The position numbers and the translations under genes are program-made. DNA of 64,000 nt from Proteiniphilum propionicum (GTDB lineage: Bacteria > Bacteroidota > Bacteroidia > Bacteroidales > Dysgonomonadaceae), in NCBI RefSeq assembly GCF_022267555.1, contig NZ_CP073586.1, positions 2,832,501-2,896,500 on the forward strand, in the 5' to 3' direction. This document shows, piece by piece, positions 36,516 to 60,285 of this stretch. The notes below the pieces were generated by a model. That model was not told where the DNA came from. It ran no database searches and was given only the letters and a program-made list of their open reading frames with translations. Every line of letters starts with the position of its first letter. Within the stretch, counting starts at the first letter, position 1.

Positions 36516-36845
36516 CAGTAATCTATTAAATACTCAATACTTCGCGTTGAATGTTTTTTTAACCTTACAATCAGAAAAAAGTGTTTAGCTTCGCTCAGGT
36601 TTATTCTACAGATATTTAATGTATTACGAATAGATTTGGAGCTATTTCCCGGACTGTTTTCTCTTCATCCCGGCTAAAAATATTATATTTCAAGACAATA
36701 GTACCGCCGATTGAGTGAATAATAATTTATAGTTACATTGAGAATATAGGAAAGTCCCATTGAATAATATAGAATCATTCTAAAAAAAGACATGCATCTA
36801 TAATCCTTTATGTAAAATAGTTACAATGTTTTTTATGAGAAATAT
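36516..36845. other. Intergenic stretch after rpsP
   Basis: About 330 bp of AT-rich sequence without a supported gene, between the rpsP terminator and the promoter of the first PAS-LuxR regulator. Confidence 0.4.
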
Positions 36846-36911
36846 GTAATATATTGTAAGTAAATTATTAAGATGTTTGTGTGATTTCAGATGCTTGTTA
36901 TTATATATTTG
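36846..36911 (+). promoter_or_regulatory. Promoter of the first PAS-LuxR regulator, variant of the shared module (P1)
   Basis: GTAATATATTGTAA (36846-36859) differs at two adjacent bases from GTAATATTATGTAA of the two module promoters described at 39992 and 47475, and is followed by GTAAA as in the first of them. The -7 element TATATTTG is at 36904-36911, 58 bp from the start of the box, 10 bp more than in the other two. The palindrome is absent. Autoregulation is possible (inference). Confidence 0.45.
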
Positions 36912-36935
36912 TGATGACATTAAAATTACAGCAAT

Positions 36936-37730
36936 ATGTACACACAAAAATTAGAAGTAAGGATTGAAAAAAAATATCAGTTCAAAGATAACATTGTGAT
37001 CGATATCAATGAAATGCCTTATCCGACGGCAATCTTTATTCCTTCGGTTAAGGAGGTGATATTAAACAATCTTGCATATAAAATACTTGGGATGGAAGTG
37101 TCCGAATTGTTTGATCTGGCCGCATGGAGAAGGATAAACCCTTATTTGGAGGATGAGGTAAAAAAGATTAATAAAGACGTTATCATTGATCAGAAGATAC
37201 ACGTTGTATTATTTAATGGCAAGCATGAGATTATGAATTATTCGCTGAAACGGATTTATGATAACAAGTTTGGAAATATTTGCATTATCCATTTCTCCAA
37301 AGCTTCAGAAAAATACTCGGTGGCTTCAATATCGTCGCTCTATTCAATAAAGGATGAAGTGGCGAAATTGAAACCCTATCTTAACCGGACCGGGAAAATG
37401 ATGCATGAGGCTACCATGAGAAAGTATTTTAGAGAGGGGAACAATCTGAAACTGACGTTGAACGATTTGGTTTATTATGAAAAAGAGTTGAGGATCATTC
37501 AAAAAGCATACCCTTCGCTGTCCAATCGTGAAGTAATTCTTTGCGGATTGCTTGTAAACGATATGGACAGCAAGGATATAGCCTCAATCACCAACAGGAC
37601 ACCTGATTCGGTGTTTGTAACTATTCATCGCATCAACAAGAAGCTTGATTTACTCAACAAAAAACAGTTGGTAGATAAGTTGAAAGAACTTTTGAATTCG
37701 ACAGGTAAAAATCAGCCTGTTACCACTTAG
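36936..37730 (+). CDS. PAS-like / LuxR-HTH transcription regulator (paralog 1)
   Basis: A 264-residue soluble regulator. The N-terminal half (about 20-135) looks like a PAS fold (IDINEMPYPTAIFIPSVKEV, ILGMEVSELFDLAAWRRINP, GKHEIMNYSLKR). The C-terminal third is a LuxR-type HTH at about 195-255 (YPSLSNREVILCGLLVNDMD, SKDIASITNRTPDSVFVTIH, RINKKL). The segment IHFSKASEKYSVAS-SSLYSI is nearly identical in the paralog at 46332-47132, and the two share well over half their residues by eye. It has no receiver domain, so it likely binds a ligand or a protein signal directly. It is convergent with the lipoprotein gene (17 bp apart). Confidence 0.8.
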   Translation: MYTQKLEVRIEKKYQFKDNIVIDINEMPYPTAIFIPSVKEVILNNLAYKILGMEVSELFDLAAWRRINPYLEDEVKKINKDVIIDQKIHVVLFNGKHEIMNYSLKRIYDNKFGNICIIHFSKASEKYSVASISSLYSIKDEVAKLKPYLNRTGKMMHEATMRKYFREGNNLKLTLNDLVYYEKELRIIQKAYPSLSNREVILCGLLVNDMDSKDIASITNRTPDSVFVTIHRINKKLDLLNKKQLVDKLKELLNSTGKNQPVTT

Positions 37731-38297: not shown

Positions 38298-39698
38298 TTA
38301 TTTAATGTATATTGTTTTTAAGTTCGCTTTTTCGCCATTCCTTACAAGTATATAATATTTTCCTGTAGTGGGCCTGTATGGGAGCACGTTATGAAAACGG
38401 TTTATCTTTTTTTGATAGGCAACATTACCAGTGTTGTCATAAACAGTAGCTGTTGCAGTCTTTAATATTCGTCCTGTAATATTGATACAAATCCGGTTAA
38501 AACTGTCAAGATAGATTATTATAGAGGGATGGTTTATTATATCAGGCAGCTGAAAACCCAGTTGTTCTGTTTCTCCAGTCTGAGCAGTTTCTCCGGTTCC
38601 GCCAGTTTGGTCAGTTCCGCCGGTTTGGTCAGTTCCGCCAGTTTCTCCGGTTCCCCCGGTTTTATCATCAGGAATAACTACTGTTCCTCCCCCTGGATTC
38701 GGATCTGTAGGAGTGGTTGATGATATGGCTCTTCCGATGATTTTATCGGGTAGAATTGATTCATTTATGCTTGAATCATACCTGTTGGTCTCTTTGCCGG
38801 AAACTGGTTCCATGTTTGTCGCAATCCACCAGTTATTCACATAACCATCCTTATTAGTGTAATTGATGCTGTTGTTTGCAGCTGTGATATTATATGATGC
38901 TCCTAAATTCCCGTACCAATTACACATAGTCATTCCCACATTGGTAAAGTAATTTCGTGTACCATACACTTTATTGTTTCTCAGGGTCATATTGTTGCCT
39001 CCTGAAATAGCAATTCCGTACTGCCCAGGGTTTACCAATACATTATCTTCGGCAATCTGATAAGAGCCGCCAATGTCACCAAGATTGATTCCTCCACCCG
39101 AACCTGAAGGGCCTCCGCCTCTAATCCAGTTTCCTCTGACCACAATAGGGCTTTCGGCAGTGCCGTTCGACTGGTTTATGTTGATGAGGTCTTCGGGAGA
39201 ACTGTCCCCGGGAAAGTTCTCGCACACATTGTAACTAATGCTGCTGCCCGCACCCGATACCTGAATAAATTGAGCCATCACTCCAAACTCATCGGAACCC
39301 TTTAATTTTCCAAGTATGTTTGTAAGATCGTTGTACTCAAATTTAATTTCCTGAGAGGTAGATGCCAGCATTCCCGACTGCACGTTTTCAAACGTATTAT
39401 CGATGATGGTCACATTTTTGCACATCCATAAATAGATGCCTCTTTTCAGCGGGCTTGGCCCCAGCTTGCAATTTCTGATAGTTACATTTTCGCAATTATA
39501 TAAGGCAATGCAGATTTCGCTGGCGCTCGAAATTTCCAATCCTTCAATTACGAAATTACTTTTGCCGATATATTTTATCGGCGCCGATTTGGTGTAATTC
39601 CCGGTATAACGGGATCCTTGCCCATAAGAATTGTGCAATGGAAAGGCAATGCATATCATAGCAAAGATGATATGACAGAGAGTGGAGTTTAGTTTCAT
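38298..39698 (-). CDS. Secreted right-handed beta-helix protein with repeat linker and T9SS-like C-terminus
   Basis: A 466-residue exported protein with a signal peptide ending near LHNSYGQ (27). A parallel beta-helix fills about 45-330, with repeated N-V-T-I rungs (CENVTIRNCKLG, CKNVTIIDNTFENV, GNNMTLRNNKVYG) as in pectate-lyase-like proteins. A flexible linker at about 345-385 contains tandem GGTDQT/GGTGET hexapeptides, encoded by an 18-bp DNA repeat. The last 75 residues (ATATVYDNTGNVAYQKKINR then TGKYYILVRNGEK and KTIYIK) match the type A C-terminal sorting signal of the type IX secretion system. I infer a cell-surface polysaccharide-binding or -cleaving protein; no catalytic residues could be assigned. 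Confidence 0.72.
   Translation of the reverse strand: MKLNSTLCHIIFAMICIAFPLHNSYGQGSRYTGNYTKSAPIKYIGKSNFVIEGLEISSASEICIALYNCENVTIRNCKLGPSPLKRGIYLWMCKNVTIIDNTFENVQSGMLASTSQEIKFEYNDLTNILGKLKGSDEFGVMAQFIQVSGAGSSISYNVCENFPGDSSPEDLININQSNGTAESPIVVRGNWIRGGGPSGSGGGINLGDIGGSYQIAEDNVLVNPGQYGIAISGGNNMTLRNNKVYGTRNYFTNVGMTMCNWYGNLGASYNITAANNSINYTNKDGYVNNWWIATNMEPVSGKETNRYDSSINESILPDKIIGRAISSTTPTDPNPGGGTVVIPDDKTGGTGETGGTDQTGGTDQTGGTGETAQTGETEQLGFQLPDIINHPSIIIYLDSFNRICINITGRILKTATATVYDNTGNVAYQKKINRFHNVLPYRPTTGKYYILVRNGEKANLKTIYIK
38575..38660. repeat. 18-bp tandem repeat encoding Gly-Gly-Thr hexapeptides
   Basis: Units of the type TTCCGCCGGTTTGGTCAG repeat about four times with small changes. They encode the linker of the beta-helix protein. 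Such arrays can change length by slippage. Confidence 0.7.
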
Positions 39699-39991
39699 TT
39701 AAAAAAAAAATTAATGATTAGGCGTTCATCCATGGCAGCTTAATCGATAAAATTATGGAGTGGTGGAATAAATTAAACGTTAGCTGTTGCATGATGATTG
39801 TTTTACAAATATAGTCGATTTTATTTATACTATCATGTTAAAAAACAATCAAATATATGATCATTTTATTGAAATTAAAAAGAATTAATTTGAGTTAACC
39901 ACCACACTGAGATTATTTATAATTATTATAAATAGAGATCATTATCAAAGATAATCTCATAAACAATTTTCCAATATTCTTAACTTATAAT
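39699..39991. other. Intergenic stretch with leftward promoter and palindromes
   Basis: On the minus strand TATATTTG at 39806-39813 is a good -7 element for the beta-helix gene. At 39915-39931 TTTATAATTATTATAAA is a perfect palindrome, flanked by GAGATTAT (39908-39915) and ATAATCTC (39950-39957). No gene is supported. Confidence 0.5.
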
Positions 39992-40071
39992 GTAATATTA
40001 TGTAAGTAAAAAATAGAAAGAATTGAGAAAATGCAGGTATAATTTTGCTACACTTAACTATTTAAGTTAAG
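39992..40071 (+). promoter_or_regulatory. Shared promoter module, copy 1 (P2)
   Basis: GTAATATTATGTAA (39992-40005), -7 element TAATTTTG (40040-40047) and the near-palindrome CTTAACTATTTAAGTTAAG (40053-40071). The same three parts with the same spacing (48 bp and 13 bp) occur at 47475-47554 before the polysaccharide operon. The palindrome would cover the transcription start, a usual operator position. It reads toward the gene at 40428, leaving a leader of about 370 bases in which I see no gene. Confidence 0.7.
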
Positions 40072-40427
40072 TAAAATATTGTAACAGCATAACAATATCT
40101 GTAAAATATATCGTTTTTAAATTAATATATGGGTGATAAATGTAAAAATAATTAAAGCGCACTTAATAATAAAAAGATTCAGTTTCTTCTTTATTATTAC
40201 ATTTTTTACCATTTAATGTTCTCAGGTGAATGATATTTGCTTTTCAGTGTTGGATATTCCAGAAACAAAAAAATATTATTTATCAACTTATCAGGTATGC
40301 AGGATGTGATATTTATTTTTACGTAAATTTAGTAAGTCAAGATGGTTAACTGCATATTTATACGGGTTATTAAATATTATGTTGCTATTACGATATTATC
40401 AGAGGTTATTCATTAAAAACAAATGAG

Positions 40428-41351
40428 ATGCTGATAGAGGTTTCAAAAGAGGAATACAGAAAACATTTCTCTACAGACTCAAGTCCTTTTATCACAGAAC
40501 AGTTTGTAGAACTGGTAGAAAACAAACAGGACAAGATTCTCCGGTTGATGAAGGATGATAATCCTTCTATTGGCTTGTTGGCCGGCACAAAAGATGGGAT
40601 TATGCGATCTCCTTTTTCAGCCCCGTTTGGCGGGTTCCATTATAAGTATGAGCATATGTTGCTGCGTGTGGTCTATGTATTCATTTCTGAGCTGAAGGAT
40701 TATATTTCTAAAAATGGGCTCAAACAGCTATATATTACACTTCCCCCGAATCTATATCAGGCCAGTATGAACGCCAAATTGGTGAACGCGTTTATTAGCC
40801 TGGGATTCACGATGGAAACGCCAGATATAAACAACTGGATTAATTTAAAAGAGTTCAATGGAGAATGGGTGAAAAGTGTGGTGCTGCAGAACTATAGAAA
40901 AGCTATGAAACATGGCCTGACATGGTGTGAGGTTTCTTGCAGGAGTGAGATGGAGGAGGCCTACAGAGTTATCAGGAGAAATCGGGAAGAAAAGGGGCGC
41001 GATATTTATATGACCCTTGACGATCTGTTGAAAGTTAAAGAAATTTTTCCGGTAGAATTCTTCATTATCAGGGACAAGAACGCCAAATGCGTAGGAGCCG
41101 GGATATTCTACCGAGGACATGAAAATATTGTTCAATGTATTTTCCTGGGTGATGATATGGAAAACAGAAGCTTAGGCGTCATGAACCTGATGTATATTAA
41201 TTGCTACAATTACTATAAAAAACTGGGTTTCGATTATATTGATATGGGTGCCTCGAGCCTGAGAGGAGAACCAAATTCAGGTTTGATTAGGTTCAAGGAA
41301 CTACACAATTGTGTTACATCGCTCCGCTATACGTTTACATGGAAATCGTAA
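40428..41351 (+). CDS. GNAT/FemAB-like acyl- or aminoacyltransferase, satellite copy
   Basis: A 307-residue soluble protein. The C-terminal half has a GNAT-type pattern typical of the FemAB-like and capsule-associated acyltransferases: VLQNYRKAMKHGLTW, then VEFFIIRDKNAKCVGAGIFY, and FDYIDMGASSLRGEPNSGLI with FKELHN, the motif where FemAB-like proteins end. The N-terminal half carries the striking SPFSAPFGGFHY. A second copy, about 60% identical over its first 106 residues, begins at 63682 inside the polysaccharide operon. The two genes therefore probably act on the same surface glycan (inference). It stands alone, with the A1S_2505-like gene convergent 46 bp away. Confidence 0.72.
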   Translation: MLIEVSKEEYRKHFSTDSSPFITEQFVELVENKQDKILRLMKDDNPSIGLLAGTKDGIMRSPFSAPFGGFHYKYEHMLLRVVYVFISELKDYISKNGLKQLYITLPPNLYQASMNAKLVNAFISLGFTMETPDINNWINLKEFNGEWVKSVVLQNYRKAMKHGLTWCEVSCRSEMEEAYRVIRRNREEKGRDIYMTLDDLLKVKEIFPVEFFIIRDKNAKCVGAGIFYRGHENIVQCIFLGDDMENRSLGVMNLMYINCYNYYKKLGFDYIDMGASSLRGEPNSGLIRFKELHNCVTSLRYTFTWKS

Positions 41352-41397
41352 CAATTAAGAGGGGTATGTAATCATGAAGATTCTGCCCGGAAAATCA

Positions 41398-41805
41398 TTA
41401 TCTGTGCAGAAGCACATTCCAGAAGCTTTCCGGAAGCATTATATTGGATATATCTGCGGCACGGGAAAAAAGAGGCGCGATTTCTGAATCACGGAAACCT
41501 GCAATGCCGCAGCCTACACGTGTCACAAGAAAAGTAAGTTCGGGATTTGCAATAGCGAAATCGATAAACTCTTCAACATAGGGCTTTATCTCTTCAGTAC
41601 CACCGTGCATAGTAGGTATTCCGTATGATTGTCCCTGTAATCCAGTACCTTTTCCCCAGACAGCGCCAAACTTCTTATAGGCAGTCAAGGCAGCCCCCCC
41701 ACGGTGATTCCCTTCTAAATTGCTGCCATATACAAATATCTCATTTTCCTTCAAATCGGAAATGTATCCCGGTGTAGTTCTTTTGTTAAACAGTAAATTA
41801 TTCAT
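41398..41805 (-). CDS. A1S_2505-type (macrodomain-like) small protein
   Basis: A 135-residue cytosolic protein. EIFVYGSNLEGNHRGGAALT, then GAVWGKGTGLQGQSYGIPT and FLVTRVGCGIAGFRDSEIAP, match the small family first noted as a phage-associated A1S_2505-type protein, whose glycine-rich loops resemble macrodomain folds that bind ADP-ribose. Activity is unknown. It is the last gene of a minus-strand run, 17 bp after the porin gene. Confidence 0.7.
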   Translation of the reverse strand: MNNLLFNKRTTPGYISDLKENEIFVYGSNLEGNHRGGAALTAYKKFGAVWGKGTGLQGQSYGIPTMHGGTEEIKPYVEEFIDFAIANPELTFLVTRVGCGIAGFRDSEIAPLFSRAADISNIMLPESFWNVLLHR

Positions 41806-41822
41806 TTCATCGATTTTTAAAT

Positions 41823-42827
41823 TTAAAACGTAAACAGGAGTTCCATCGTGATCTTGTTAGAATCCATCTCTCTGTTTTTTGCGAATATATCCATGCTGTT
41901 ATTCACGAAATACCATTCGTAATCTAATCTAAGCAAGGAAGAATATCGTTTGTTGTTATATCCGAACCCCAGTCCCGCAGTCAAACGGTTCACATCCCAT
42001 CCGCTCTTATCAGAACTTTCATCAATGCCATCCCAGCGAATGGCAGGTTTTATAAACTCGAACATTTTTGTCTTGACAGGAAAGAGATATGCACCCTGCA
42101 CATAATATGATAGCATATTGTTGTGATATTCTGTCTTACTCTTTCTTTTCATGATTTCCGTCTCAATCTTCCACCTGTCACCTTTGTAACGAAAGTCAGC
42201 TCCGTAAAAGACAAAATGGGTGGAATCGCTTTTCGGATAGTTATAAATTTTGGCTGTTACACGCGCACCCTGCATTTTTCCCAGCTCAACGCGTCCTCCG
42301 TAAGCCATATCTTCTTTCCAAACAGGATTATTTATTGTATTTCCATTGAACATTCCGAACTCCAATTTGGCGGGAACTGTACCAAGCAAAAGATTATATT
42401 TAGCCATAACCCCTAGATCTCTGGTGCTAAGGAAATATTTCCCCAAAAACGCCCGGTTGGCGAACATCATTTCACCAGGGCTTACAACATATGAGTTAAA
42501 CAATGGTATGCTTGTCTGTCCTAAGGTAAGAGAGAGCCCGTTAACCGGCATTAAAGTACCACTAAGATCCAGCACACTGAACTTCCCTTCGTTACTGAGC
42601 TCTACCTGAACCTTGTATGCAGAGTAGGTATTAATGTTTCCCGAAACGCCTATGCGTGAGTTCCGTACCGAAAAACGATACATACCTGTCTCAGATGCAT
42701 ATTCGAATTTATTTTTTAATGTTCCGTCCACTTTGAAGTTCGGATATAATATACTGTCTGATTCTTGCGCACTCAAACAAAATGTTAATGTGCCAATTGA
42801 CAATATTGTAAACAGAAGATTACGCAT
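41823..42827 (-). CDS. Phosphate-selective porin O/P-like outer-membrane protein
   Basis: A 334-residue predicted beta-barrel starting at the ATG at 42827 (MRNLLFTILSIGTLTFCLSA), which yields a proper signal peptide; the longer open frame adds 44 residues that read as noncoding. Strands include MYRFSVRNSRIGVSGNINTY, YKVQVELSNEGKFSVLDLSG and a long run of alternating aromatic/polar segments to the C-terminal MELLFTF, whose final Phe is typical of BAM substrates. Family resemblance is to OprO/OprP porins; the transported solute is not evident. It lies 35 bp after the MGMT gene. Confidence 0.75.
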   Translation of the reverse strand: MRNLLFTILSIGTLTFCLSAQESDSILYPNFKVDGTLKNKFEYASETGMYRFSVRNSRIGVSGNINTYSAYKVQVELSNEGKFSVLDLSGTLMPVNGLSLTLGQTSIPLFNSYVVSPGEMMFANRAFLGKYFLSTRDLGVMAKYNLLLGTVPAKLEFGMFNGNTINNPVWKEDMAYGGRVELGKMQGARVTAKIYNYPKSDSTHFVFYGADFRYKGDRWKIETEIMKRKSKTEYHNNMLSYYVQGAYLFPVKTKMFEFIKPAIRWDGIDESSDKSGWDVNRLTAGLGFGYNNKRYSSLLRLDYEWYFVNNSMDIFAKNREMDSNKITMELLFTF

Positions 42828-42862
42828 GATTATAAAATAATATTTTCTATCGATTAAAGTAA

Positions 42863-43417
42863 TTATATTGCTGATTCGTTTTTCAACATCATCTCTTTTA
42901 TGCCTAAACCCCAGTGATATCCACCCAGGCTTTTGTCTGAACTTATTACCCGGTGACATGGGATAATGTATGAAATAGGATTCTCTTTCACTGCAGAGCC
43001 AACAGCCCGAAAAGCCTTGGGGTTACCTGTATTTTCCGCGATAATTTTGTAGGTAGTTGTTTCCCCGTATGGGATATTAAGCAGCTCTTCCCATACTCTC
43101 AGCTGAAAACTGGTTCCTTTTATATGTAGGGGAAGGAAGTCGTCGGCAACTTTACCGTCAATAAGGGAAAGAGCTGTATCGTGTACTTTCTCGCTCTCTT
43201 TTATGTGAATGGCTGCGGAGTATCTTTTTTTTAGTTCGTACTCCATATTTTTCTCGTTGCCAAAGGCTATATAACAGATACCGGTATTGGTAGAAGCAAT
43301 AAGAACTTTACCGTACAACGAATAATAAATATTATACTTTATTTTAATTCTGTTTTCCTCATGTGGTGACATTACGGTAATATACAGAATATTATTATTT
43401 CTATCTTGTTGGCTCAT
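42863..43417 (-). CDS. ogt: Methylated-DNA--protein-cysteine methyltransferase
   Basis: A suicide repair enzyme that moves the alkyl group of O6-methylguanine onto its own cysteine. The active site is IIPCHRVI with Cys154; the helix-turn-helix segment PYGETTTYKIIAENTGNPKA and the asparagine hinge KENPISYIIP are present. Length 184 is near normal for Ogt. The start may be the ATG at 43417 or a later one (MSPHEENRIKIKYNIYYSLY, 14 codons in). It lies in the minus-strand group with ApbE and a porin; no functional link is obvious. Confidence 0.93.
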   Translation of the reverse strand: MSQQDRNNNILYITVMSPHEENRIKIKYNIYYSLYGKVLIASTNTGICYIAFGNEKNMEYELKKRYSAAIHIKESEKVHDTALSLIDGKVADDFLPLHIKGTSFQLRVWEELLNIPYGETTTYKIIAENTGNPKAFRAVGSAVKENPISYIIPCHRVISSDKSLGGYHWGLGIKEMMLKNESAI

Positions 43418-43479
43418 CTCAGGTTATATTATTTGTAATCAGCAACGCAGATAAGTATGTACAATTTATAAAGCATACA

Positions 43480-44517
43480 TTAATTGGATAAAAACTGTTC
43501 AAAACCATCGGAATATTTTATGCCGAAGGTGCTGTCCTGCTTTTCGTAAATGAAATAGTAGTACAGCCCGGGAAGTTTACTGGCTACTTCAATCGATCTC
43601 TCCATTCCCATTGCCATGAAGGCTGTCGCATATGCATCGGCAGTCATGCAGTCATCGGCAATAACTGTAGCCCCAAGAATATCCAGTTGTGAGGGATATC
43701 CCGTTTGTGGATCTATGGTGTGTGCATATTTTTTCCCATCTTTTATATAGTAATTACGGTAATTGCCCGATGTTGCCATTGATTTGTTGCATAGTGACAG
43801 AATTACCTGCAGGTCGTGCTGAATACCTGTAAAATCGTCAATTGGCTTATCCACTCCAATTCGCCAGCACTCACCCTTCTCGTTCACTCCTTTTGCAGTA
43901 ATCTCTCCGCCAATCTCAACCATGTAGTTATCAATTCCGTAACTCTCCAGTAGGTCTGCTATCACATCACATGCATATCCTTTGGCAATGGCAGATGCAT
44001 TTATCTGTACTCTGGGATCGCTTTTCAAAATGTATCCATCACTGTCTATGCTTATTTTTTCGTAACCTACAAAGCTTTTGAGGCTGTCGATAATTTCAGG
44101 TGTTACACTGTCGATATTCTTAAATCCGAAACCCCATGCATTGATAAGCGGTGATACGGTGATATCAAATTTTCCTCCGGTATTTCGTGAAACCTCTTCC
44201 GATTTCAGGAATACGTTCAAGAAAAAAGAGTCGGGTTTCACCTGCTCATTACGATTTACTTTTGATATTATTGAGCTATCTTTAAAAGGATTTAATGACA
44301 TATCGAACTTGTGGAGTTCGGCCACAATCTCCTCTTTAAGTGAATGGCTGTATGAATATTTTATATTATAGCCGGTTGTGAAGATCTCTCCTTGATCATG
44401 ATGATATGTATAATTCTCTTTTTTATTCACTGAATTACATGACAGGACCAGTGAAACTAAAACCAAAGAAAGTGTATTTATATATTGAACTCTCATCTGT
44501 TTGGTTATTTTCATCAT
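43480..44517 (-). CDS. apbE: ApbE-family FAD:protein FMN transferase
   Basis: A 345-residue lipoprotein of the periplasmic face, with lipobox VSLVLSC (Cys26 or 27 from the first ATG). It covalently attaches FMN to threonine residues of redox proteins such as Nqr/Rnf subunits. Family motifs are FDITVSPLINAWGFGF, INASAIAKGYACDVIADLLE, YMVEIGGEITAKG, the HTIDPQTGYP box and the Mg-binding DDCMTADAYATAFMAMG. Full length. Two ATGs in a row at the start leave a one-codon ambiguity. Confidence 0.95.
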   Translation of the reverse strand: MMKITKQMRVQYINTLSLVLVSLVLSCNSVNKKENYTYHHDQGEIFTTGYNIKYSYSHSLKEEIVAELHKFDMSLNPFKDSSIISKVNRNEQVKPDSFFLNVFLKSEEVSRNTGGKFDITVSPLINAWGFGFKNIDSVTPEIIDSLKSFVGYEKISIDSDGYILKSDPRVQINASAIAKGYACDVIADLLESYGIDNYMVEIGGEITAKGVNEKGECWRIGVDKPIDDFTGIQHDLQVILSLCNKSMATSGNYRNYYIKDGKKYAHTIDPQTGYPSQLDILGATVIADDCMTADAYATAFMAMGMERSIEVASKLPGLYYYFIYEKQDSTFGIKYSDGFEQFLSN

Positions 44518-44590
44518 TCACACAATTAAAATATTAATGAACAGTCTTAAATTCTAAATCGACTTTTTGCAGGTGACTTTTTTCTTATTC

Positions 44591-45541
44591 TTAAAATTCT
44601 TCTTCAATCCGGTAATAGTTCCTTTCGGGCGAATTCCTTGAAATTAGCTCACCCAAAAATCCCGCCAGAAAGAGAAGCGTTCCCAGTATCATCATTGTTA
44701 GAGAGATATAGAAATATGGCGACTCGGTAACCAGGCGGTAAGGGTTCCCATGGTGCATGTCGTACAGTTTCATTGAACCTACGAGAATGGTTGCGATGAA
44801 ACCGATAAAGAACATCACGCTTCCCCACAACCCGAAGAAGTGCATTGGCTTTTTCCCGAACCTGTTAAGGAACCATAAAGTCATTAGGTCGAGGTAACCA
44901 TTAACGAACCTGTCGGCACCGAATTTACTCCTTCCATATTTACGTGCCTGGTGGTGTACTGCCATTTCACCGATTTTAGTATATCCTGCATTCTTGGCCA
45001 GTACCGGGATATAGCGATGCATATCGTTATACACCTCTATGCTTTTTGCCAGTGATTTGCTATAAGCTTTTAATCCGCAATTAAAATCGTGAAGTTTTAT
45101 TCCTGACACTTTTCTGGCTGTTGCGTTAAACAATTTGGACGGCAGGTTCTTTGTCAGTTTATCGTCGTACCTCTTTTTTTTCCATCCTGAAACCAGATCG
45201 TAGCCATCTTCCCTGATCATACGGTAAAGCTCCGGTATTTCATCTGGACTATCCTGAAGATCGGCATCCATTGTGATGATAACATCGCCTTCTGCTTTTT
45301 GAAAAGCACAATGCAGTGCTGGCGATTTGCCATAATTCCGTCTAAACTTTATTGCTTTTACCATATTGGAGCCGTTCTTCAGCTTTTTTATGATCTCCCA
45401 GGAGCCATCAGTGCTTCCATCGTCTACAAAAATAATTTCGTATGAAAAACCATTCTCCTGCATAACACGTTTTATCCAGTCGTGCAGCTCTTGAAGCGAG
45501 TCTTCTTCGTTAAATAACGGTATTACAACTGATATATCCAT
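44591..45541 (-). CDS. Membrane-anchored family 2 glycosyltransferase (DPM1/GtrB type)
   Basis: A 316-residue enzyme with a cytosolic GT-A domain (1-225) and two C-terminal membrane helices at about 232-256 and 268-293. Motifs are VVIPLFNEEDSLQEL, FVDDGSTDGSW, DADLQDSP (the metal-binding DxD region) and LHDFNCGLKAYSK. Members such as GtrB, ArnC and Dpm1 transfer a sugar from a nucleotide donor to the polyprenyl-phosphate carrier. It is followed after 73 bp by apbE and preceded at 24 bp by the DUF4199 gene. It could supply a lipid-linked sugar for the neighbouring glycan, or modify lipid A or phospholipid (inference). Confidence 0.92.
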   Translation of the reverse strand: MDISVVIPLFNEEDSLQELHDWIKRVMQENGFSYEIIFVDDGSTDGSWEIIKKLKNGSNMVKAIKFRRNYGKSPALHCAFQKAEGDVIITMDADLQDSPDEIPELYRMIREDGYDLVSGWKKKRYDDKLTKNLPSKLFNATARKVSGIKLHDFNCGLKAYSKSLAKSIEVYNDMHRYIPVLAKNAGYTKIGEMAVHHQARKYGRSKFGADRFVNGYLDLMTLWFLNRFGKKPMHFFGLWGSVMFFIGFIATILVGSMKLYDMHHGNPYRLVTESPYFYISLTMMILGTLLFLAGFLGELISRNSPERNYYRIEEEF

Positions 45542-45565
45542 CGATTTGAAAAAACATTAAATATT

Positions 45566-46081
45566 TTACAGTTTTTTTAAACGCATCGCCGTGGGAACTA
45601 CAATAAGAGAGAGAATGAAACCCAGGAAAACATCCGCCAGGATTACATTGCTTATGATATAAGAAAATATTGATGGGAGGGGTTGCTCTGCCAGGCGTGA
45701 TGCGAAGGATTTACCTATATTTATTGTCTGAGCCATCTCTATCATTTTCTCATAAAGATTCGATATATAAGCAGGTTCGATCCATTTAACATGAATGAAC
45801 ACTACAAGAGATTCGAGTATGGAGGCGAAAAAAAACAACAATATTGAAAATTGAACCCCATGCCAGAAACTCATTTTGTTCTGCATTAAACAAGTATTGT
45901 ATTTTACAAGAAAATAAAACAGCAACAGGGGAGTGCCAAAACTCAGTATCGAACCAATTGTGTTGAATATCCGATAGCTATTCCCTGCAATTACAAACAG
46001 GTATTTAAAAACCCAGAATAACCCAAGGTAAATACCTGCATACGTAGTATAATTCAACAATTGATTTCTGTTCTCTTCCAT
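45566..46081 (-). CDS. DUF4199 membrane protein
   Basis: A 171-residue integral membrane protein with four helices at about 13-33, 38-60, 71-95 and 142-163. The family is Bacteroidetes-specific, of unknown function, and often encoded beside a GtrB-type glycosyltransferase as here. Start at ATG 46081; the divergent regulator gene begins 251 bp away. Confidence 0.8.
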   Translation of the reverse strand: MEENRNQLLNYTTYAGIYLGLFWVFKYLFVIAGNSYRIFNTIGSILSFGTPLLLFYFLVKYNTCLMQNKMSFWHGVQFSILLFFFASILESLVVFIHVKWIEPAYISNLYEKMIEMAQTINIGKSFASRLAEQPLPSIFSYIISNVILADVFLGFILSLIVVPTAMRLKKL

Positions 46082-46297
46082 TTAGTACAATTTATCATAC
46101 AAAAGTAATCAAAAATATTAAAAAGTAGAAAATGAAGATTTTTGAATAAAATTTGACTGCCCGGACTCATTGGTTATAATCAATATAATTTATTGTTAAT
46201 TCTATAATCCCATGCAAATCAAATAGTGCTACTAAAAAATCCACGTTAAATTAAGATTTATTAAACAAAAAAGTATCGAAGTAATGACAATACATTT

Positions 46298-46305
46298 TAT
46301 ATTTG
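46298..46305 (+). promoter_or_regulatory. -7 element of the second PAS-LuxR regulator
   Basis: TATATTTG at 46298-46305, followed by TGACAT. The same TATATTTGTGA core is found in the promoter of the paralog at 36904. I see no GTAATATTATGTAA box here. Confidence 0.5.
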
Positions 46306-46331
46306 TGACATGTTTTAAAGATCACAACAGT

Positions 46332-47132
46332 ATGGAATCCCCAAAATTGGAGATAGGGAGGAGTGGATTGTTTCAATCAGATGGGAAAATTTTGATTGAT
46401 ATAGATGATATACCTTATCCCACAGCTGTTTATTTTATTGATAATGATGAGGTTGCTTTGAATAAGTGTGCATATGAAATTCTTGGAATGAAGGATGACG
46501 CAGTTTTTGACCTTAATTCGTGGAGAAAAATTAATCCATACGTTGAAGATATTCTAAAAAAAATAACCCCCGGAATTGTAACAGACCAAAAAATTCATGT
46601 AATACTTTTTGATGGAAAACATGAAATTATGAACTACTCATTCTCTTGTTTTTCAAATCCTTTAATAGGTAAAATTACTATTATTCATTTTTCAAAAGCT
46701 TCTGAAAAATATTCCGTTGCCTCATTATCTTCTTTATATTCTATAAGGGAGGAATTGACAAAGTTAAAACCTTATCTGAACAGGCCCGGTAAAATAATAC
46801 ATGATGAAATAATGACAAAGTATTTCAGAGAGGGGAATCAAAAACTCACATTAGATGATTTAGTATATTATGAGAAGGAGCTTCGCATTATCCAGAGAAC
46901 ATATCCATCTTTATCACATCGTGAAGTAATTTTGTGCGGATTACTTGTAAATGATGTTGACACAAAGGATATAGCGGTTATTACCAACAGGTCGTTGGTC
47001 TCTGTATTTGTTACAATCCATCGCATCAACAAAAAACTGGGAATATTAAATAAGAAAGAATTGATTCTTATGCTGAAAAATCTTGTAAGAAAGAAGGAAA
47101 AACAACATAAAATAACTATAGCCGGCTTCTGA
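46332..47132 (+). CDS. PAS-like / LuxR-HTH transcription regulator (paralog 2)
   Basis: A 266-residue soluble regulator. I start it at ATG 46332 (MESPKLEIGRSGLFQSDGKI) because this aligns with the start of the paralog at 36936; a longer frame adds 16 residues. The PAS-like half covers about 20-140 (IDIDDIPYPTAVYFIDNDEV, ILGMKDDAVFDLNSWRKINP) and the LuxR HTH about 195-255 (YPSLSHREVILCGLLVNDVD, TKDIAVITNRSLVSVFVTIH, RINKKLGIL). It lies directly upstream of the polysaccharide operon, with the same orientation, so it is the most likely specific regulator of the promoter at 47475-47554 (inference). Confidence 0.8.
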   Translation: MESPKLEIGRSGLFQSDGKILIDIDDIPYPTAVYFIDNDEVALNKCAYEILGMKDDAVFDLNSWRKINPYVEDILKKITPGIVTDQKIHVILFDGKHEIMNYSFSCFSNPLIGKITIIHFSKASEKYSVASLSSLYSIREELTKLKPYLNRPGKIIHDEIMTKYFREGNQKLTLDDLVYYEKELRIIQRTYPSLSHREVILCGLLVNDVDTKDIAVITNRSLVSVFVTIHRINKKLGILNKKELILMLKNLVRKKEKQHKITIAGF

Positions 47133-47474
47133 TTCATTTTGAATGAAAATAGCAGTAACGTAATCATTACACTCCATCTCACGTAATCAGCAAAATATTT
47201 AAATATTAACCACCATGCCTGCCTTTGCTGCCAGATATATTTAATGCATTTTAATCTGTAAGCTAATTCCTGAATAGCTAACATCATTTCAGCTACAATG
47301 TACTTTATTTATATTGCTATAGTATTGAAACATTGCTGTACTGGTTTCAAACATGCCCGGTTTTGGAAACAGAGCAATGTTTAACAATATTTATTATGCA
47401 ATTTATAGCAATTCCAATTAAAATATCAGCAACAGCGTTAAACAGTCGTTTATGAAATATAGTCCATCTGTTTT
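47133..47474. other. Intergenic stretch with a 67-bp inverted repeat
   Basis: TATTGAAACATTGCT (47323-47337) pairs with AGCAATGTTTAACAATA (47373-47389) with a two-base bulge, and an inner GTTTC/GAAAC pair extends the structure. No T-run follows. No gene is supported here. Confidence 0.6.
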
Positions 47475-47554
47475 GTAATATTATGTAATTAAAATTTTAA
47501 TAATAACGATAAATTGAAAATATATATTTGCAGCACTTAACTAATTTAGTTAAG
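47475..47554 (+). promoter_or_regulatory. Shared promoter module, copy 2 (P3), polysaccharide operon
   Basis: GTAATATTATGTAA (47475-47488), -7 element TATATTTG (47523-47530) and the perfect 19-bp palindrome CTTAACTAATTTAGTTAAG (47536-47554). The distances between the starts of the parts, 48 and 13 bp, are identical to those of the module at 39992-40071. The first gene begins about 150 bp downstream. Confidence 0.72.
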
Positions 47555-47705
47555 AACAATGCAACGTACTTTTTCTTTTATTCGGGAATAACATTTATGT
47601 GGAAAATAATATTTAGGCTGAAACATTATCATTTTAAAATTCGATCCTGATATTTTCCTAGTGTGATAAAGCGTGTTTTATGTAGTGTTTCTAACTTCTA
47701 TTGAA

Positions 47706-48500
47706 ATGAATAAAATTATTTACACTCTGATATTAATTATGATATCCATATCTTGTTCTCAAGTTAAGGATATTTCATATTTTCAGAATATTGAGCAGAT
47801 AATGACTTTACCCGGCAGTAACGGTAACGGGCACGATGCGAGAATAAAACCTAAAGATATTTTGTCTATCACCGTTGTTAGCAGTGAACCTGCCGCATCG
47901 AGAAGATACAACCTTTTTACACCGCAAACTGAAACTGGCGGTACGTTCTACTCCCAGGCAGTGCTTCAAAACTATTTGGTGGACAGCGATGGAAAAATTA
48001 ATTTTCCATCTTTGGGGTCTCTGAAGGTAGAAGGGTTAAATACCAAAGAGCTGGAATTGCATATCAACAATCTGCTTGCTCCGTTCTTCACTGAAGAGAA
48101 GCCGGTTGTCACTGTCAGAATTGTTAATTATTCGGTCAATATAATGGGTGAAGTTCTCAGGCCGGGGAAATATGAATCAATGAGCGGCCGGATGACAATC
48201 TTAGATGGATTGGCAATGGCGGGCGATATGACTATTTACGGACGCAGAGATAATGTGAAAGTGCTAAGGGATGATGGAAATGGAGAGCTAATTATATACA
48301 CGCTTAATCTGACTGATAAAAACATGTTTTATTCCCCCGCATTTTTTTTGGAGCAAAATGATGTTGTGTATGTCGAACCCAACAAGTCGAAGGCAAATTC
48401 TTCAAAATATGGAGCCGCTGAATCTTTCAGGATTTCTACTTTGTCGGTATTGATCTCTCTGATAACTATGACTACAACAATTTTCGGATTGTTGAGGTGA
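47706..48500 (+). CDS. Wza/BexD-type polysaccharide export lipoprotein
   Basis: A 264-residue outer-membrane lipoprotein from the ATG at 47706 (MNKIIYTLILIMISISCSQV), lipobox ISISC (Cys17). An earlier ATG at 47673 would add 11 residues before the signal peptide. The polysaccharide export domain lies at about 45-150 (ARIKPKDILSITVVSSEPAA, LVDSDGKINFPSLGSLKVEG) and an SLBB domain at about 155-230 (NYSVNIMGEVLRPGKYESMS, TILDGLAMAGDM), followed by a C-terminal membrane-spanning segment. It forms the outer-membrane channel for the glycan, working with the Wzc-type kinase encoded 35 bp downstream. Confidence 0.92.
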   Translation: MNKIIYTLILIMISISCSQVKDISYFQNIEQIMTLPGSNGNGHDARIKPKDILSITVVSSEPAASRRYNLFTPQTETGGTFYSQAVLQNYLVDSDGKINFPSLGSLKVEGLNTKELELHINNLLAPFFTEEKPVVTVRIVNYSVNIMGEVLRPGKYESMSGRMTILDGLAMAGDMTIYGRRDNVKVLRDDGNGELIIYTLNLTDKNMFYSPAFFLEQNDVVYVEPNKSKANSSKYGAAESFRISTLSVLISLITMTTTIFGLLR

Positions 48501-48535: not shown

Positions 48536-50914
48536 ATGTATAAATATTCTGAAGTTGAAGAGGAATTTTCGGCGCTTGCAGAAAAGAGGATCGATCTGAT
48601 TGATATTATAATGAAATATCTGTCTTACTGGAAATGGTTTTTGCTCTCGATAATATTATCTCTGGCCATTGCAGTATCTTATATCTATATAACGTTGCCT
48701 AAATACAAGGTGGCGACTTCAATACTATTCAAAGACGACCAAAAAGGGGGGTTAACCGAGATGAACATCTTTAGAGAGATGGGGGTAGTAAACAGAAAAA
48801 ACAATGTAGATAATGAGATAGAGATACTAAAAAAATCATTGATTGTAGAGAGTGTTGTCAGGAAGCTGAATCTGTATGTTACATATACAAAACTGAATCC
48901 ATTTGAGTTTATTCATCAAACAGGAATTGATAAGGTTTTTCCAAAACTTACATATTTAAGATCGAAAGTAATTTACGGGAAACAATGCCCCATAATAATA
49001 GTGATCCCTGAAAATATTCTGAATAATATGACGAATAACATCGAATTAGATGTTCGGGTAAACAGTGACGGGCATTATCTTTTTTCAGGTATGCATGAAG
49101 GGAAAAAATATTATGTCGGTGGAACTTTTGCCAACAGTACCGCTAATCTGCCTTTTGGTGAAATAAATGTGTTAAAGGGTAATGCCGTTCCAGAAAAAAG
49201 CATGGTCATACGACTTCAGATAAACCATCCGGTGAATGTTGCCGATCAGTTTCTAAATGCCCTTGAGATAGAGCTGACATCGAAAACATCATCGGTAGCG
49301 ACACTTTCTCTGGAATGCATGAATGGTGAATTGGGAAGGACCTTTTTAAAAGAATACATCGAGACATTTAATGAAAAGGTAATAAACGAGCAGATGGAGC
49401 TGGCTGAAAAAACAGCAATACTTATTGATAAACATCTCACAAAACTTAGCAATGAACTAAGCGAAATGGAGTCTCAGGTGCAGGATTACAAGCAGTCACA
49501 AGGGTTGACCGATATTTCTTCACAGGCTGATCTCTTTAATGTTCAGTCGGCAAATATGAGACAAAGGAAGATGGAGGTTGAATCGCAATATGCAATTGTA
49601 TCTGATCTTAATAAATATGTACAGCAGAGGAACGATCATAATCAGCTTATACCTGCCAATCCGGGTATAAAAAGCGAGGTTTTGAATGCACAGATTAACG
49701 CGTATAACAATTTGGTGTTGGAGAGGAATAAACTAGCGCGCATAGCCTCTGGAAGCAACCAGTCGATGATAGACCTGAATAACAGGATTGAATCAACTTT
49801 CAACTCTGTTAAAACAGGACTGCAAAACGAGATGAATAACCTTGTTATACAGCAGCGCGATATCAATGCCTTATATTCTCAAAGCAATGCCAGGATACGG
49901 GCTATACCACGCCAGGAACGTGTCTATTCCGATATTATACGTCAGCAAAACATCAAAGAAGCGTTGTTCCTCTATCTTCTTCAGAAAAAAGAAGAGAGAT
50001 ATATGAATATGACTACTGGTGAACCTACTTCAAGGATTATTGATAATATACGTGTGTTGGGGATAGTTTCGCCAAACAAGAAAATTATCTTTTTTTTATT
50101 TTTTGTCATCGGATCAATATTTCCCGTAGTGGTTATTAAAATCAGAGATCTGCTAAGATACCAGATAGACACTAGGGAGGATATTGAAAAAATCTCTTCT
50201 ATACCGGTACTTGGAGAGATACCAAAATCGGTTCAATCGCAGATAATTGCAGTGAAAGAAGACTGCAACGACAGTTTTAATGAAATGATAAGGCTGTTGA
50301 GGGCAAACCTTTTATTTGTTATTGAAGGTGATAATAAGGTTATAAACATATTGTCGGGAATAAGCGGTGACGGAAAAACGTTTGCTACTCTCAACCTGGG
50401 CATGAGCCTGGCACTACTTGATAAAAACGTGTTGATCATTGAGCTGGATATCAGAAAACCTAAGCTTGCCAAAATTCTTGGATTAGATAGCAAGAAAGGA
50501 GTTACACTTTATTTATCAGGTATTTTAGATAGAAATGAGCTTGTAAAACCTTCCGGTATTCATCCTAATTTGTATGTAATTACTGCTGGAGCGGTTCCTC
50601 CTAATCCTAATGAGATTTTGTCGAAATCAATGCTGGATGAGTTGATAAACAATTATAAGAGCGAATATGATTTCATATTTCTTGATACTGCACCGTTGGG
50701 GCAGGTATCAGACGGATTTGTATTGAACCGGCTTGCAGATGTGAACCTCTACGTTGCCCGTTCAGGATATACGCCTAAAAAATATATTGGCGATGCAGAC
50801 AGGTTTTACCGTGAGAACAGGTTAAAGAAAATATATTTTGTGCTGAACTCTGTTAACATGAACTCAATGGAGTACAGATATGGATTTAGTAAAAAATATG
50901 GATATGGGTATTAA
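48536..50914 (+). CDS. Wzc-type polysaccharide co-polymerase and tyrosine autokinase
   Basis: A 792-residue inner-membrane protein that controls chain length and export. The first membrane helix is at about 33-53, a large Wzz-type periplasmic domain with coiled coils (about 290-420) follows, and the second helix is at about 517-537. The cytosolic BY-kinase domain has Walker A GISGDGKT (about 608-615), Walker A' VLIIELDIRKPKL and Walker B YDFIFLDTAP. The tail YRYGFSKKYGYGY carries five tyrosines (780, 782, 788, 790, 792) for autophosphorylation. Start at ATG 48536. Cycling of this phosphorylation drives assembly in Wzy-dependent systems (established for the family). Confidence 0.94.
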   Translation: MYKYSEVEEEFSALAEKRIDLIDIIMKYLSYWKWFLLSIILSLAIAVSYIYITLPKYKVATSILFKDDQKGGLTEMNIFREMGVVNRKNNVDNEIEILKKSLIVESVVRKLNLYVTYTKLNPFEFIHQTGIDKVFPKLTYLRSKVIYGKQCPIIIVIPENILNNMTNNIELDVRVNSDGHYLFSGMHEGKKYYVGGTFANSTANLPFGEINVLKGNAVPEKSMVIRLQINHPVNVADQFLNALEIELTSKTSSVATLSLECMNGELGRTFLKEYIETFNEKVINEQMELAEKTAILIDKHLTKLSNELSEMESQVQDYKQSQGLTDISSQADLFNVQSANMRQRKMEVESQYAIVSDLNKYVQQRNDHNQLIPANPGIKSEVLNAQINAYNNLVLERNKLARIASGSNQSMIDLNNRIESTFNSVKTGLQNEMNNLVIQQRDINALYSQSNARIRAIPRQERVYSDIIRQQNIKEALFLYLLQKKEERYMNMTTGEPTSRIIDNIRVLGIVSPNKKIIFFLFFVIGSIFPVVVIKIRDLLRYQIDTREDIEKISSIPVLGEIPKSVQSQIIAVKEDCNDSFNEMIRLLRANLLFVIEGDNKVINILSGISGDGKTFATLNLGMSLALLDKNVLIIELDIRKPKLAKILGLDSKKGVTLYLSGILDRNELVKPSGIHPNLYVITAGAVPPNPNEILSKSMLDELINNYKSEYDFIFLDTAPLGQVSDGFVLNRLADVNLYVARSGYTPKKYIGDADRFYRENRLKKIYFVLNSVNMNSMEYRYGFSKKYGYGY

Positions 50915-51055
50915 TGAATAGTTCAATTGTCGCATATGTTATGAGTTCATATTAATTTTTCAATGAAGCTGGATATTATAGCTATATGCTAATTGGATGA
51001 ACAGATGTAAAAGTTAAGCAAATAATATGTGATTCGATTATAAATTTCAGGCATA

Positions 51056-51472
51056 ATGGAGCTCAATGGCGCAAACATAATTCAACTTCCTAAAAAATTT
51101 GACAGAAGGGGAAACCTTTCAGTCATAGAAGAGATAAAAAATATTCCATTTAAGATAAAGCGTACCTATTGGATTTATGATGTTCCGGGGGGAGAGGTAC
51201 GAGGTGGACATGCATATAAGCGCAATCAGGAATTTATTGTAGCACTTTCAGGTAGTTTTGATGTGATTCTGGATAATGGGGAGGAGAGAAAAATATATAC
51301 TCTCAACAGGTCATACTATGGCCTGTATGTACCAAAAGGAGTGTGGAGACAAATGCAAAATTTTTCGACCAATGCGTTAGCTCTCATACTTGCTTCCATC
51401 AAATTTGACATGAAAGACTATATTTATGATTATACTCTGTTTAAAGAACTGACAAAAGAACTAATAACCTGA
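51056..51472 (+). CDS. FdtA/QdtA-like cupin, sugar ketoisomerase-like (copy 1)
   Basis: A 138-residue cupin of the family that isomerises dTDP-4-keto-6-deoxyglucose to the 3-keto sugar. TYWIYDVPGGEVRGGHAYKR, then FIVALSGSFDVILDNGEER and LYVPKGVWRQMQNFS, follow the fold. Where FdtA enzymes have R-G-x-H-A-H this copy reads RGGHAY, so the second of the two histidines is Tyr. It may therefore be altered in activity or specificity, or be a structural partner of copy 2. It lies 141 bp after the kinase gene and 61 bp before copy 2. Confidence 0.82.
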   Translation: MELNGANIIQLPKKFDRRGNLSVIEEIKNIPFKIKRTYWIYDVPGGEVRGGHAYKRNQEFIVALSGSFDVILDNGEERKIYTLNRSYYGLYVPKGVWRQMQNFSTNALALILASIKFDMKDYIYDYTLFKELTKELIT

Positions 51473-51533
51473 TAAATAATTCGAATGTATATTTTTTGGA
51501 GAGCATTCAATTACCGACATTTAAAGAATTATA

Positions 51534-51986
51534 ATGAAAAGGACAAACATATACGACTGTTCAATAATTGAAATTGATAAACATCACAACGAGAAAGGGA
51601 ATATAAGTGTGGTAGAGAACGGTAAAACCATACCCTTCAGAGTAAAGCGTGTTTATTACCTGTATGATGTACCCGGTGGTGAGTCAAGGGGCGGGCATGC
51701 GCATAAGAAACTACATCAGTTGATTGTTGCGGCCAGCGGAAGTTTTGATGTGACGGTTGATGATGGTGAATTAAAAAGGACCTTTACCATCAACAGGCCT
51801 TACAGAGGAGTGTTAATAGTGCCGGGCATTTGGAGAGAGCTGGATAACTTCTCTTCCGGTTCTGTTTGTCTGGTATTGGCATCGACTGAATATTCAGATG
51901 ATGATTATATAAGAGATTACAAGCAATTTAAGGAGTATAAAAATAATTTGTCAAACAAGCGGGGTAAGCCGGAAACTTTAAAATGA
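51534..51986 (+). CDS. FdtA/QdtA-like sugar 3,4-ketoisomerase (copy 2)
   Basis: A 150-residue cupin with the complete RGGHAHKK motif (VYYLYDVPGGESRGGHAHKK), SGSFDVTVDDGELKR and VPGIWRELDNFSSGSVCLVL. The enzyme isomerises a dTDP-4-keto-6-deoxyhexose to the 3-keto form, which the DegT-family aminotransferase encoded next would convert to a 3-amino-3,6-dideoxyhexose (Fuc3N or Qui3N). Whether the product is galacto- or gluco-configured cannot be told from the sequence. The tandem with copy 1 suggests duplication. Confidence 0.88.
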   Translation: MKRTNIYDCSIIEIDKHHNEKGNISVVENGKTIPFRVKRVYYLYDVPGGESRGGHAHKKLHQLIVAASGSFDVTVDDGELKRTFTINRPYRGVLIVPGIWRELDNFSSGSVCLVLASTEYSDDDYIRDYKQFKEYKNNLSNKRGKPETLK

Positions 51987-52064
51987 CAGGTGATGGTAAT
52001 TATATTGTCTTGTATGTGAATGTTTTATATAAGATGAACAAGGTGTGGTTGAAAAACGGTTGAC

Positions 52065-53165: not shown

Positions 53166-53188
53166 AAAACATAATCAGTATAAATGAA

Positions 53189-54175: not shown

Positions 54176-54190
54176 TGTAAAGATAATAGT

Positions 54191-56570: not shown

Positions 56571-56785
56571 AAGAAATAAACCTGTAAGAAAATATGAGGT
56601 GTTTTAAGTTAAAAAATGATATGGATAGTACTCTCATTGTACGGATTTTTATGCTCCTGTGTGAGTTTTATAATTGCATTTGCTACAGATTTGACTCGCA
56701 TCCTTCCGTCCCCCCAGGGACTGGTATAAATTGGAATAACTGTAACAGCAACAGATTCTAAAGTCAAATAAATTACAATTCTTGT
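56571..56785. other. Gap inside the glycosyltransferase operon
   Basis: Two short open frames overlap here on opposite strands (37 codons from an ATG at 56618 on the plus strand, and about 55 codons without ATG on the minus strand). Neither has a domain I recognise. Unlike the tight spacing elsewhere in the operon, this looks like sequence left by a gene loss or duplication (inference). Confidence 0.3.
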
Positions 56786-58081: not shown

Positions 58082-58100
58082 TATTTTCAAATAAAACTAA

Positions 58101-60273: not shown

Positions 60274-60285
60274 TTCTTCACTGTT

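Follow-up and report, generated by a model that had tools for sequence, protein, structure and literature searches.

A candidate dually controlled promoter module shared by a polysaccharide operon and a lone acyltransferase-like gene in Proteiniphilum

To our knowledge, few operator sites have been mapped in the Bacteroidota beyond a few model species. Among the Bacteroidales, the invertible capsule promoters of Bacteroides are polysaccharide operon promoters with a pair of inverted repeats, one on each side. Four further systems bear on the locus described here: (i) the TAnnTTTG -7 element of Bacteroidota primary-sigma promoters, placed at -12 to -5 (PMC9723704; PMC7366714), (ii) the CpxR site, GTAAA-N4-8-GTAAA (PMC5063474), (iii) the PAS-LuxR proteins of Streptomyces, which bind the dyad CTVGGGAWWTCCCBAG at their targets (PMC5143413), and (iv) VqmA, which activates an sRNA repressor of biofilm genes (PMC8284805).

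The locus of interest lies in a 64,000-nucleotide stretch of Proteiniphilum propionicum DNA (the whole stretch analysed; hereafter, the window). It contains two copies of a promoter module with the same TAnnTTTG -7 element as Bacteroidota primary-sigma promoters; it differs from these in having no conserved TTTG near -33 in the aligned loci, its other two elements being an upstream repeat at phased spacing and a dyad at the start site. A literature search of limited coverage found no description of this module.

Two control regions with the same three parts

A preliminary description of the window reported two matching control regions, with the same three parts at equal spacings. This is confirmed, and the match is far beyond chance. 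The 14-mer GTAATATTATGTAA occurs exactly at 39992 and 47475; these are the sole zero-mismatch matches on both strands of the window (expectation 0.003 per window, a simple base-composition estimate), and the only exact matches genome-wide. In both copies, the start-to-start spacings are 48 bp from the 14-mer to the -7 element, and 13 bp from the -7 element to an exact CTTAAC-N7-GTTAAG palindrome (40053-40071 and 47536-47554). The spacer and flanking sequences differ between the copies.

The upstream element (the far box) is better taken as 15 bp, TGTAA-N5-TGTAA, a direct repeat with a 10-bp period. All three parts lie on the forward strand. Copy 1 consists of the far box TGTAATATTATGTAA (39991..40005; about -61 to -47), the -7 element TAATTTTG (40040..40047) and the dyad CTTAACTATTTAAGTTAAG (40053..40071), which has two near-centre changes relative to the genus consensus and retains 7-bp perfect arms. 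Copy 2 consists of a far box at 47474..47488, the -7 element TATATTTG (47523..47530) and the dyad CTTAACTAATTTAGTTAAG (47536..47554), a perfect palindrome with 9-bp arms. Placing TAnnTTTG at -12 to -5 (PMC9723704) gives transcript starts at 40052 and 47535, as the preliminary description predicted; the predicted +1 is thus the base preceding the dyad, which occupies approximately +2 to +20. A search of the 3.9-Mb genome for TTTGCNNCACTTAACTANNTNAGTTAAG with up to three mismatches returned exactly two matches, copies 1 and 2 (reversed-pattern control: 0).

Copy 1 precedes a lone GNAT/FemAB-like acyltransferase-like gene (40428..41351, forward; an ORF with a weak FemAB match), the product of which gives a low-confidence fold model (pLDDT 59) resembling FemX/MprF/GNAT folds. 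Divergent from copy 1 is a gene for a right-handed beta-helix protein (38298..39698, reverse); a similar gene is found at the corresponding place in most relatives' loci. The first gene behind copy 2 is a wza-like polysaccharide export gene (47706..48500, forward; Poly_export), with an inferred start codon at 47706 versus the ORF-list start, GTG at 47673. The remainder of the polysaccharide operon within the window (48536..63658, forward; ORFs, part of them profile-searched) encodes a Wzc-like kinase, two FdtA-like proteins, a DegT aminotransferase and glycosyltransferases; ORF 58101-59459 has no Pfam or NCBIfam match. As first described, a paralog of the copy 1 gene lies inside the copy 2 operon: it is 61% identical, starts at 63682 and is cut by the window end (63682..64000, forward), beyond which further genes follow. 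The window also encodes two PAS-LuxR proteins, PAS-LuxR 1 (36936..37730, forward) and PAS-LuxR 2 (46332..47132, forward; start codon inferred from alignment, ORF-list start 46284).

Conservation and distribution of the module

Of the 39 genomes from the window's genus, 13 have the palindrome promoter; it is absent from all 62 other genomes of the family, where a reversed control gave one match (G090). Occurrence beyond the genus was rejected: an order-wide scan (393 genomes, up to two mismatches) found matches in 4 of 392 non-own genomes, which we take as chance because each has two mismatches and the reversed-pattern control gave more than a dozen matches.

All 16 distinct loci selected by the palindrome carry TGTAA-N5-TGTAA, starting either 53 bp (14 loci) or 52 bp (two loci) before TTTG, and all 16 carry the full TAnnTTTG element; the selecting pattern included TTTG, while the far box and the TA of the -7 element played no part. 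An alignment of 17 loci has 32 invariant columns, every one of them within the three elements and none in the spacer (where one is nearly invariant). TTTG near -33 is not conserved in the corresponding columns of the 16 aligned loci. Likewise, a -33 motif was not identified in Flavobacterium johnsoniae (PMC7366714), and so a -33 TTTG appears to be no firm requirement.

This pattern of conservation bears on whether the two copies arose by a recent duplication that carried the promoter along, with its parts under no selection. In favour of this, 7.5 kb separates the copies, and paralogous pairs of PAS-LuxR and acyltransferase genes lie next to them. However, their spacers and flanks differ, the acyltransferases are 61% and the PAS-LuxR proteins 62% identical, and 12 other genomes share the conserved parts; across the genus, the parts are kept and the spacers are not. 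Searches of the copy 1 leader (blastn and translated) against the window's operon and 15 loci, 14 from relatives and one own, detected no operon remnants. With spacers and paralogs this diverged, recent duplication is rejected as the whole explanation, and we consider it very improbable.

A search of the genus for the far box plus TAnnTTTG, permitting gaps of 24-50 bp, gave 28 matches, all with gaps of 33, 34, 43 or 44 bp (reversed-pattern control: four matches). The two classes, 33/34 and 43/44 bp, differ by one helical turn. When only TATATTTG was used as the -7 element, 29 of 32 genus matches had these gaps, versus one of nine outside the genus. In OmpR/CpxR-type regulated promoters, tandem direct repeats recur about every 10-11 bp along one face of the helix; TGTAA-N5-TGTAA has this form, with phased spacing in 28/28 cases. 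Because the spacers are locked to 33/34 or 43/44 bp, the far box is probably an activator-type site, as had been proposed.

At 17 of the 28 sites the dyad is present as well, with 0 to 2 mismatches and always at one offset. These precede wza (11), a collagen-like lipoprotein gene (two), the lone acyltransferase-like gene (one) or genes without a reference match (three). The module lies before 12 of the 13 wza orthologs and before none of the 14 paralogs, which bears out the proposed tie to polysaccharide genes. The suggestion of one shared regulon is supported as well. Taken with the genes in related species, the distribution points to a small shared surface-coat programme, an exopolysaccharide/surface regulon that appears confined to the window's genus within the genomes searched.

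The PAS-LuxR proteins and the start-site dyad

The two PAS-LuxR proteins are 62% identical. They score 21.3 and 22.9 bits against GerE (E 2e-4 and 6.6e-5; Pfam curated cut-off 23.5), and neither matches a Pfam PAS domain. In PAS-LuxR 2, an N-terminal PAS domain is suggested by fold only: PAS/LOV proteins head the Foldseek list and the best matches are the PAS/LOV-LuxR proteins EL222 and VqmA, from a middling model (pLDDT 72.6, pTM 0.43) and at low whole-chain TM-scores (0.26-0.32). The matches of this model to LuxR-type proteins make a LuxR/GerE-type HTH probable.

The far box is found in the promoters of nine of the 17 PAS-LuxR genes in the genus, and in all nine the distance from far-box start to TA is 58-59 bp, versus 48-49 bp in the targets. 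PAS-LuxR 1 is one of these: a far-box variant, TGTAATATATTGTAA (36845..36859, forward), is set back from its TATATTTG (36904-36911) by one additional helical turn, with no CTTAAC dyad. In the other eight promoters, including that of PAS-LuxR 2, no TGTAA box was found at the expected place. The dyad is missing from PAS-LuxR promoters.

The element common to PAS-LuxR and target promoters is therefore the far box, not the dyad, which is what would be seen if PAS-LuxR itself bound the far box and activated its own gene and the targets, leaving the dyad to another factor. Each of the 13 genomes with PAS-LuxR has one or more phased far-box promoters. However, equally phased far-box promoters (gaps 34, 34 and 44 bp) also precede a ~340-aa lipoprotein gene in G054, G057 and G082, where the search found no full-length PAS-LuxR. 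Further, the Streptomyces PAS-LuxR proteins bind a dyad and not a direct repeat (PMC5143413). The idea of PAS-LuxR as far-box binder, raised in the preliminary description, is weakened by these genomes, and we regard it as unlikely. Since the far box also occurs where no PAS-LuxR was found, it is probably bound by a different protein.

The dyad is supported as a separate element just past the predicted start: its sequence is nearly invariant across the genus loci. Among the 39 genomes, 12 have both dyad and full-length PAS-LuxR, one the dyad only, one PAS-LuxR only and 25 neither (Fisher p 4e-8); because the genes are physically linked and the genomes, being related by descent, are not independent, this co-occurrence is inflated. 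The exceptions are G083 (88% complete), with dyad and operon present and no PAS-LuxR found, and G065, with two PAS-LuxR genes and no dyad found. The collagen-like gene, used as an independent test of the PAS-LuxR link, has matches in four of 39 genomes; three of these (G065, G066, G088) have PAS-LuxR, and the fourth (G078), without PAS-LuxR, has a weak match confined to the repeat region. The outcome is mixed, since the 958 bp preceding the G065 match showed no module.

Alternatively, the dyad may work as RNA, as a 5'-end hairpin that shields the mRNA or serves as the binding site of an RNA regulator. The predicted +1 immediately before the dyad fits this, the two leaders have folding energies of -6.7 and -6.0 kcal/mol (z-scores -1.65 and -2.86), and PAS-LuxR and 340-aa lipoprotein transcripts would likewise begin near inverted repeats, of other sequence. 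Yet the hairpin is weak, and the sequence of the dyad is kept beyond pairing: six of eight stem pairs are invariant in 17 loci, none has changed on both sides, and the copy 1 and L079 dyads have uncompensated changes. No covariation supporting an RNA stem was found in the 17 loci, the invariant pairs being neutral on this point. We think an RNA role improbable.

An invertible promoter of the Bacteroides capsule type was also rejected, there being one dyad per promoter. A scan confined to this dyad's sequence found no second dyad with up to four mismatches within 900 bp of a module dyad in the scanned loci; the nearest, with four mismatches, is 951 bp away in locus L072.

A putative two-factor promoter and its described relatives

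From the observed sequence, spacing, distribution and linkage of the parts, we infer the binding events, the identity of both factors, the sign of the dyad's effect and the transcript starts in the following arrangement. Each copy would be one complete, dually controlled housekeeping-type promoter. A putative activator, plausibly an OmpR/CpxR-type response regulator because the TGTAA half-sites stand in tandem every 10 bp, would bind at about -61 to -47 and recruit RNA polymerase to a TAnnTTTG promoter without a recognisable -33 box. A second factor, dimeric and most likely the PAS-LuxR protein whose gene adjoins the operon, would have the 19-bp dyad CTTAACTAANTTAGTTAAG (about +2 to +20) as its operator and gate transcription where it starts. 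An operator inside the transcribed region is not typical of LuxR-type activators. With the activator box also present, one helical turn more distant, at about half of the PAS-LuxR genes, the two regulators would make up a feed-forward arrangement. We give about even chances to this proposal. More tentatively, and somewhat short of even, the module may constitute a genus-specific two-factor gate on exopolysaccharide, collagen-like lipoprotein and acyltransferase genes, with a tandem-repeat activator acting from either of two positions one helical turn apart and PAS-LuxR on the dyad.

The promoter layout is fully specified (two boxes, -7 element and phased spacings), with natural spacing variants and part-losing lineages; together with a candidate regulator, it makes predictions of binding and regulon directly testable. 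It also joins a polysaccharide operon, a collagen-like lipoprotein and an acyltransferase in one probable surface programme.

Like OmpR/CpxR-type sites, the far box lies upstream of a promoter and repeats GTAA in tandem at an interval of about one helical turn; it differs from CpxR sites in its fifth base, its exact 10-bp period and its occurrence in an unrelated phylum. Like PimM/FscRI and VqmA, the PAS-LuxR proteins combine PAS with a LuxR-type fold (here by model comparison) and are encoded beside a gene cluster. Streptomyces PAS-LuxR targets and the module alike have a dyad near the target, although that of the module is unrelated in sequence and lies after the predicted start. Finally, the module shares with the invertible capsule promoters of Bacteroides an inverted repeat at the promoter of a Bacteroidales polysaccharide operon, but a single dyad per promoter takes the place of a flanking pair.

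The promoter module in the genome and in the genus

Two modules with matching parts and the same spacings are present in the window, as the preliminary description stated. The far box, GTAATATTATGTAA, occurs exactly at 39992 (copy 1, upstream of the lone acyltransferase-like gene 40428..41351) and at 47475 (copy 2, upstream of the wza-like export gene and polysaccharide operon, from 47706). It is followed by the -7 element (TAATTTTG at 40040-40047; TATATTTG at 47523-47530) and by the 19-bp palindrome, or dyad, CTTAAC-N7-GTTAAG (40053-40071 and 47536-47554), with identical spacings of 48 and 13 bp. Across the whole genome, a single contig (3,906,720 bases; ≤3 mismatches), the -7/palindrome pattern returned two matches, namely copies 1 and 2, and the reversed control returned none. 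The exact far-box 14-mer is likewise found genome-wide only at these two copies.

Within the window's genus, 13 of 39 genomes carry the palindrome promoter, versus 0 of 62 in the family's other genera (reversed control: one match among 101 genomes). An order-wide scan of 393 genomes gave 2-mismatch matches in four genomes besides the window's own, fewer than the reversed-pattern control. Sixteen loci were chosen by palindrome, with the far box playing no part in the choice; all 16 carry a far box, starting 53 bp (14 loci) or 52 bp (two loci) before TTTG. When 17 loci were aligned, the far box (a direct repeat of TGTAA with a period of 10 bp), the -7 element and the palindrome together accounted for every one of the 32 invariant columns. 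The consensus reads TGTAATRTTATGTAA, 33-34 bp, TATATTTG, 5 bp, CTTAACTAANTTAGTTAAG. The module is a real, conserved promoter unit at the genus level.

By eye, roughly half of the relatives' loci also show, ~8-15 bp past the dyad, a box resembling GAGGTGTC/GAGGTCGAC; it is absent from both window copies.

Spacer phasing and target genes

The 39 genus genomes were searched for TGTAANNTTNTGTAA followed, 24-50 bp on, by TANNTTTG. The gap is 33, 34, 43 or 44 bp in 28/28 matches (reversed pattern: four matches), the two classes being separated by one helical turn. A similar search with TATATTTG across 101 family genomes placed 29 of 32 genus matches, and one of nine non-genus matches, at these gaps.

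The palindrome is present at 17 of the 28 sites, with zero to two mismatches and a constant offset, and all 17 have a gap of 33/34. Eleven precede wza, two a collagen-like lipoprotein gene and one the window's lone acyltransferase-like gene; three are without a reference match (one near a contig end in relative G066, two in relative G074). By eye, the two G074 sites precede putative glycosyltransferase genes. The 11 sites at which the palindrome is absent belong to six PAS-LuxR genes, all with gap 43/44, and five genes for a ~340-aa lipoprotein (loci L157:9997, L158:3018, L159:10105, L160:9593 and L161:2488), one member of which was searched and has no Pfam or NCBIfam match. The lipoprotein orthologs have gaps of either class (33/34 in three, 44 in two), a natural shift by one helical turn.

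The module lies upstream of 12 of 13 wza orthologs (≥60% identity), the thirteenth, in relative G068, having a decayed dyad only, and upstream of 0/14 paralogs (40-48%). Module-bearing collagen-like repeat lipoprotein genes occur in two genomes (loci L070:1567-3729 and L076), apart from the polysaccharide operon; in L070 an OmpA-family gene adjoins.

Locus layout

Most relatives' loci share the order PAS-LuxR, lipoprotein, beta-helix gene, module, wza operon (family names were assigned by a search of the window's proteins only). In the window this arrangement is divided between two complementary halves: one holds PAS-LuxR 1 (36936..37730, +), the lipoprotein, the beta-helix gene (38298..39698, -), module 1 and the acyltransferase; the other, PAS-LuxR 2 (46332..47132, +), module 2 and the full operon, including its own acyltransferase. 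The halves look like two loci that have each lost what the other retained.

A second conserved block (39795-39905), situated in the divergent region that precedes the beta-helix gene, is present in all 10 relatives' loci aligned. It comprises CAAANRTA (a reverse -7), ATCATGTTAAAANACAA, AATTAATAAGAATTAG and ATTAAC, and reads as that gene's own candidate regulated promoter. By eye, a putative IS30-type transposase ORF (34717-35676) lies just upstream of PAS-LuxR 1 and a putative ribosomal protein S16-like (rpsP-like) gene (35798-36442), whose C-terminal tail is long, charged and alanine/glutamate-rich; the S16-like gene also adjoins PAS-LuxR in several relatives.

Candidate regulators and predicted promoter function

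Full-length PAS-LuxR proteins are encoded in 13/39 genus genomes; 11 more have weak matches only, via proteins mostly of ~970 residues, and one distant relative (38%) occurs in another genus. A fold model of PAS-LuxR 2, of middling quality and with EL222 and VqmA as best matches, supports a PAS domain plus a probable LuxR-type HTH. Dyad and full-length PAS-LuxR occur together in 12 of the 39 genomes, the dyad only in one (G083), PAS-LuxR only in one (G065) and neither in 25 (p = 4e-8, a figure that ignores descent and linkage). Phased far-box promoters occur in 13/13 PAS-LuxR genomes and also in G054, G057, G082 and G083; because of these four, the far-box factor is probably a protein other than PAS-LuxR. 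The far box is found at 9/17 genus PAS-LuxR promoters, and none was seen at the PAS-LuxR 2 promoter in the window. In loci L067, L071, L077 and L078 the PAS-LuxR promoters have an inverted repeat of another sequence, GTGAC-N10/12-GTCAC, which overlaps the predicted start as well as the final G of the -7 box; a weaker version lies at 36911-36932.

With TAnnTTTG at -12 to -5, as placed in PMC9723704, the predicted transcript starts are 40052 and 47535, the conserved purine preceding the dyad. On this numbering the dyad spans +2 to +20, with the far box at -61 to -47. The phased upstream repeat and the missing -33 box would fit an activator, the far-box factor, binding at -61 to -47. Lying across the first transcribed bases, the dyad would fit an operator. 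Its stem could also act in RNA, but that stem is weak (-6.0 and -6.7 kcal/mol) and no pair is changed on both sides. The module is built from parts of known kinds in a new arrangement.
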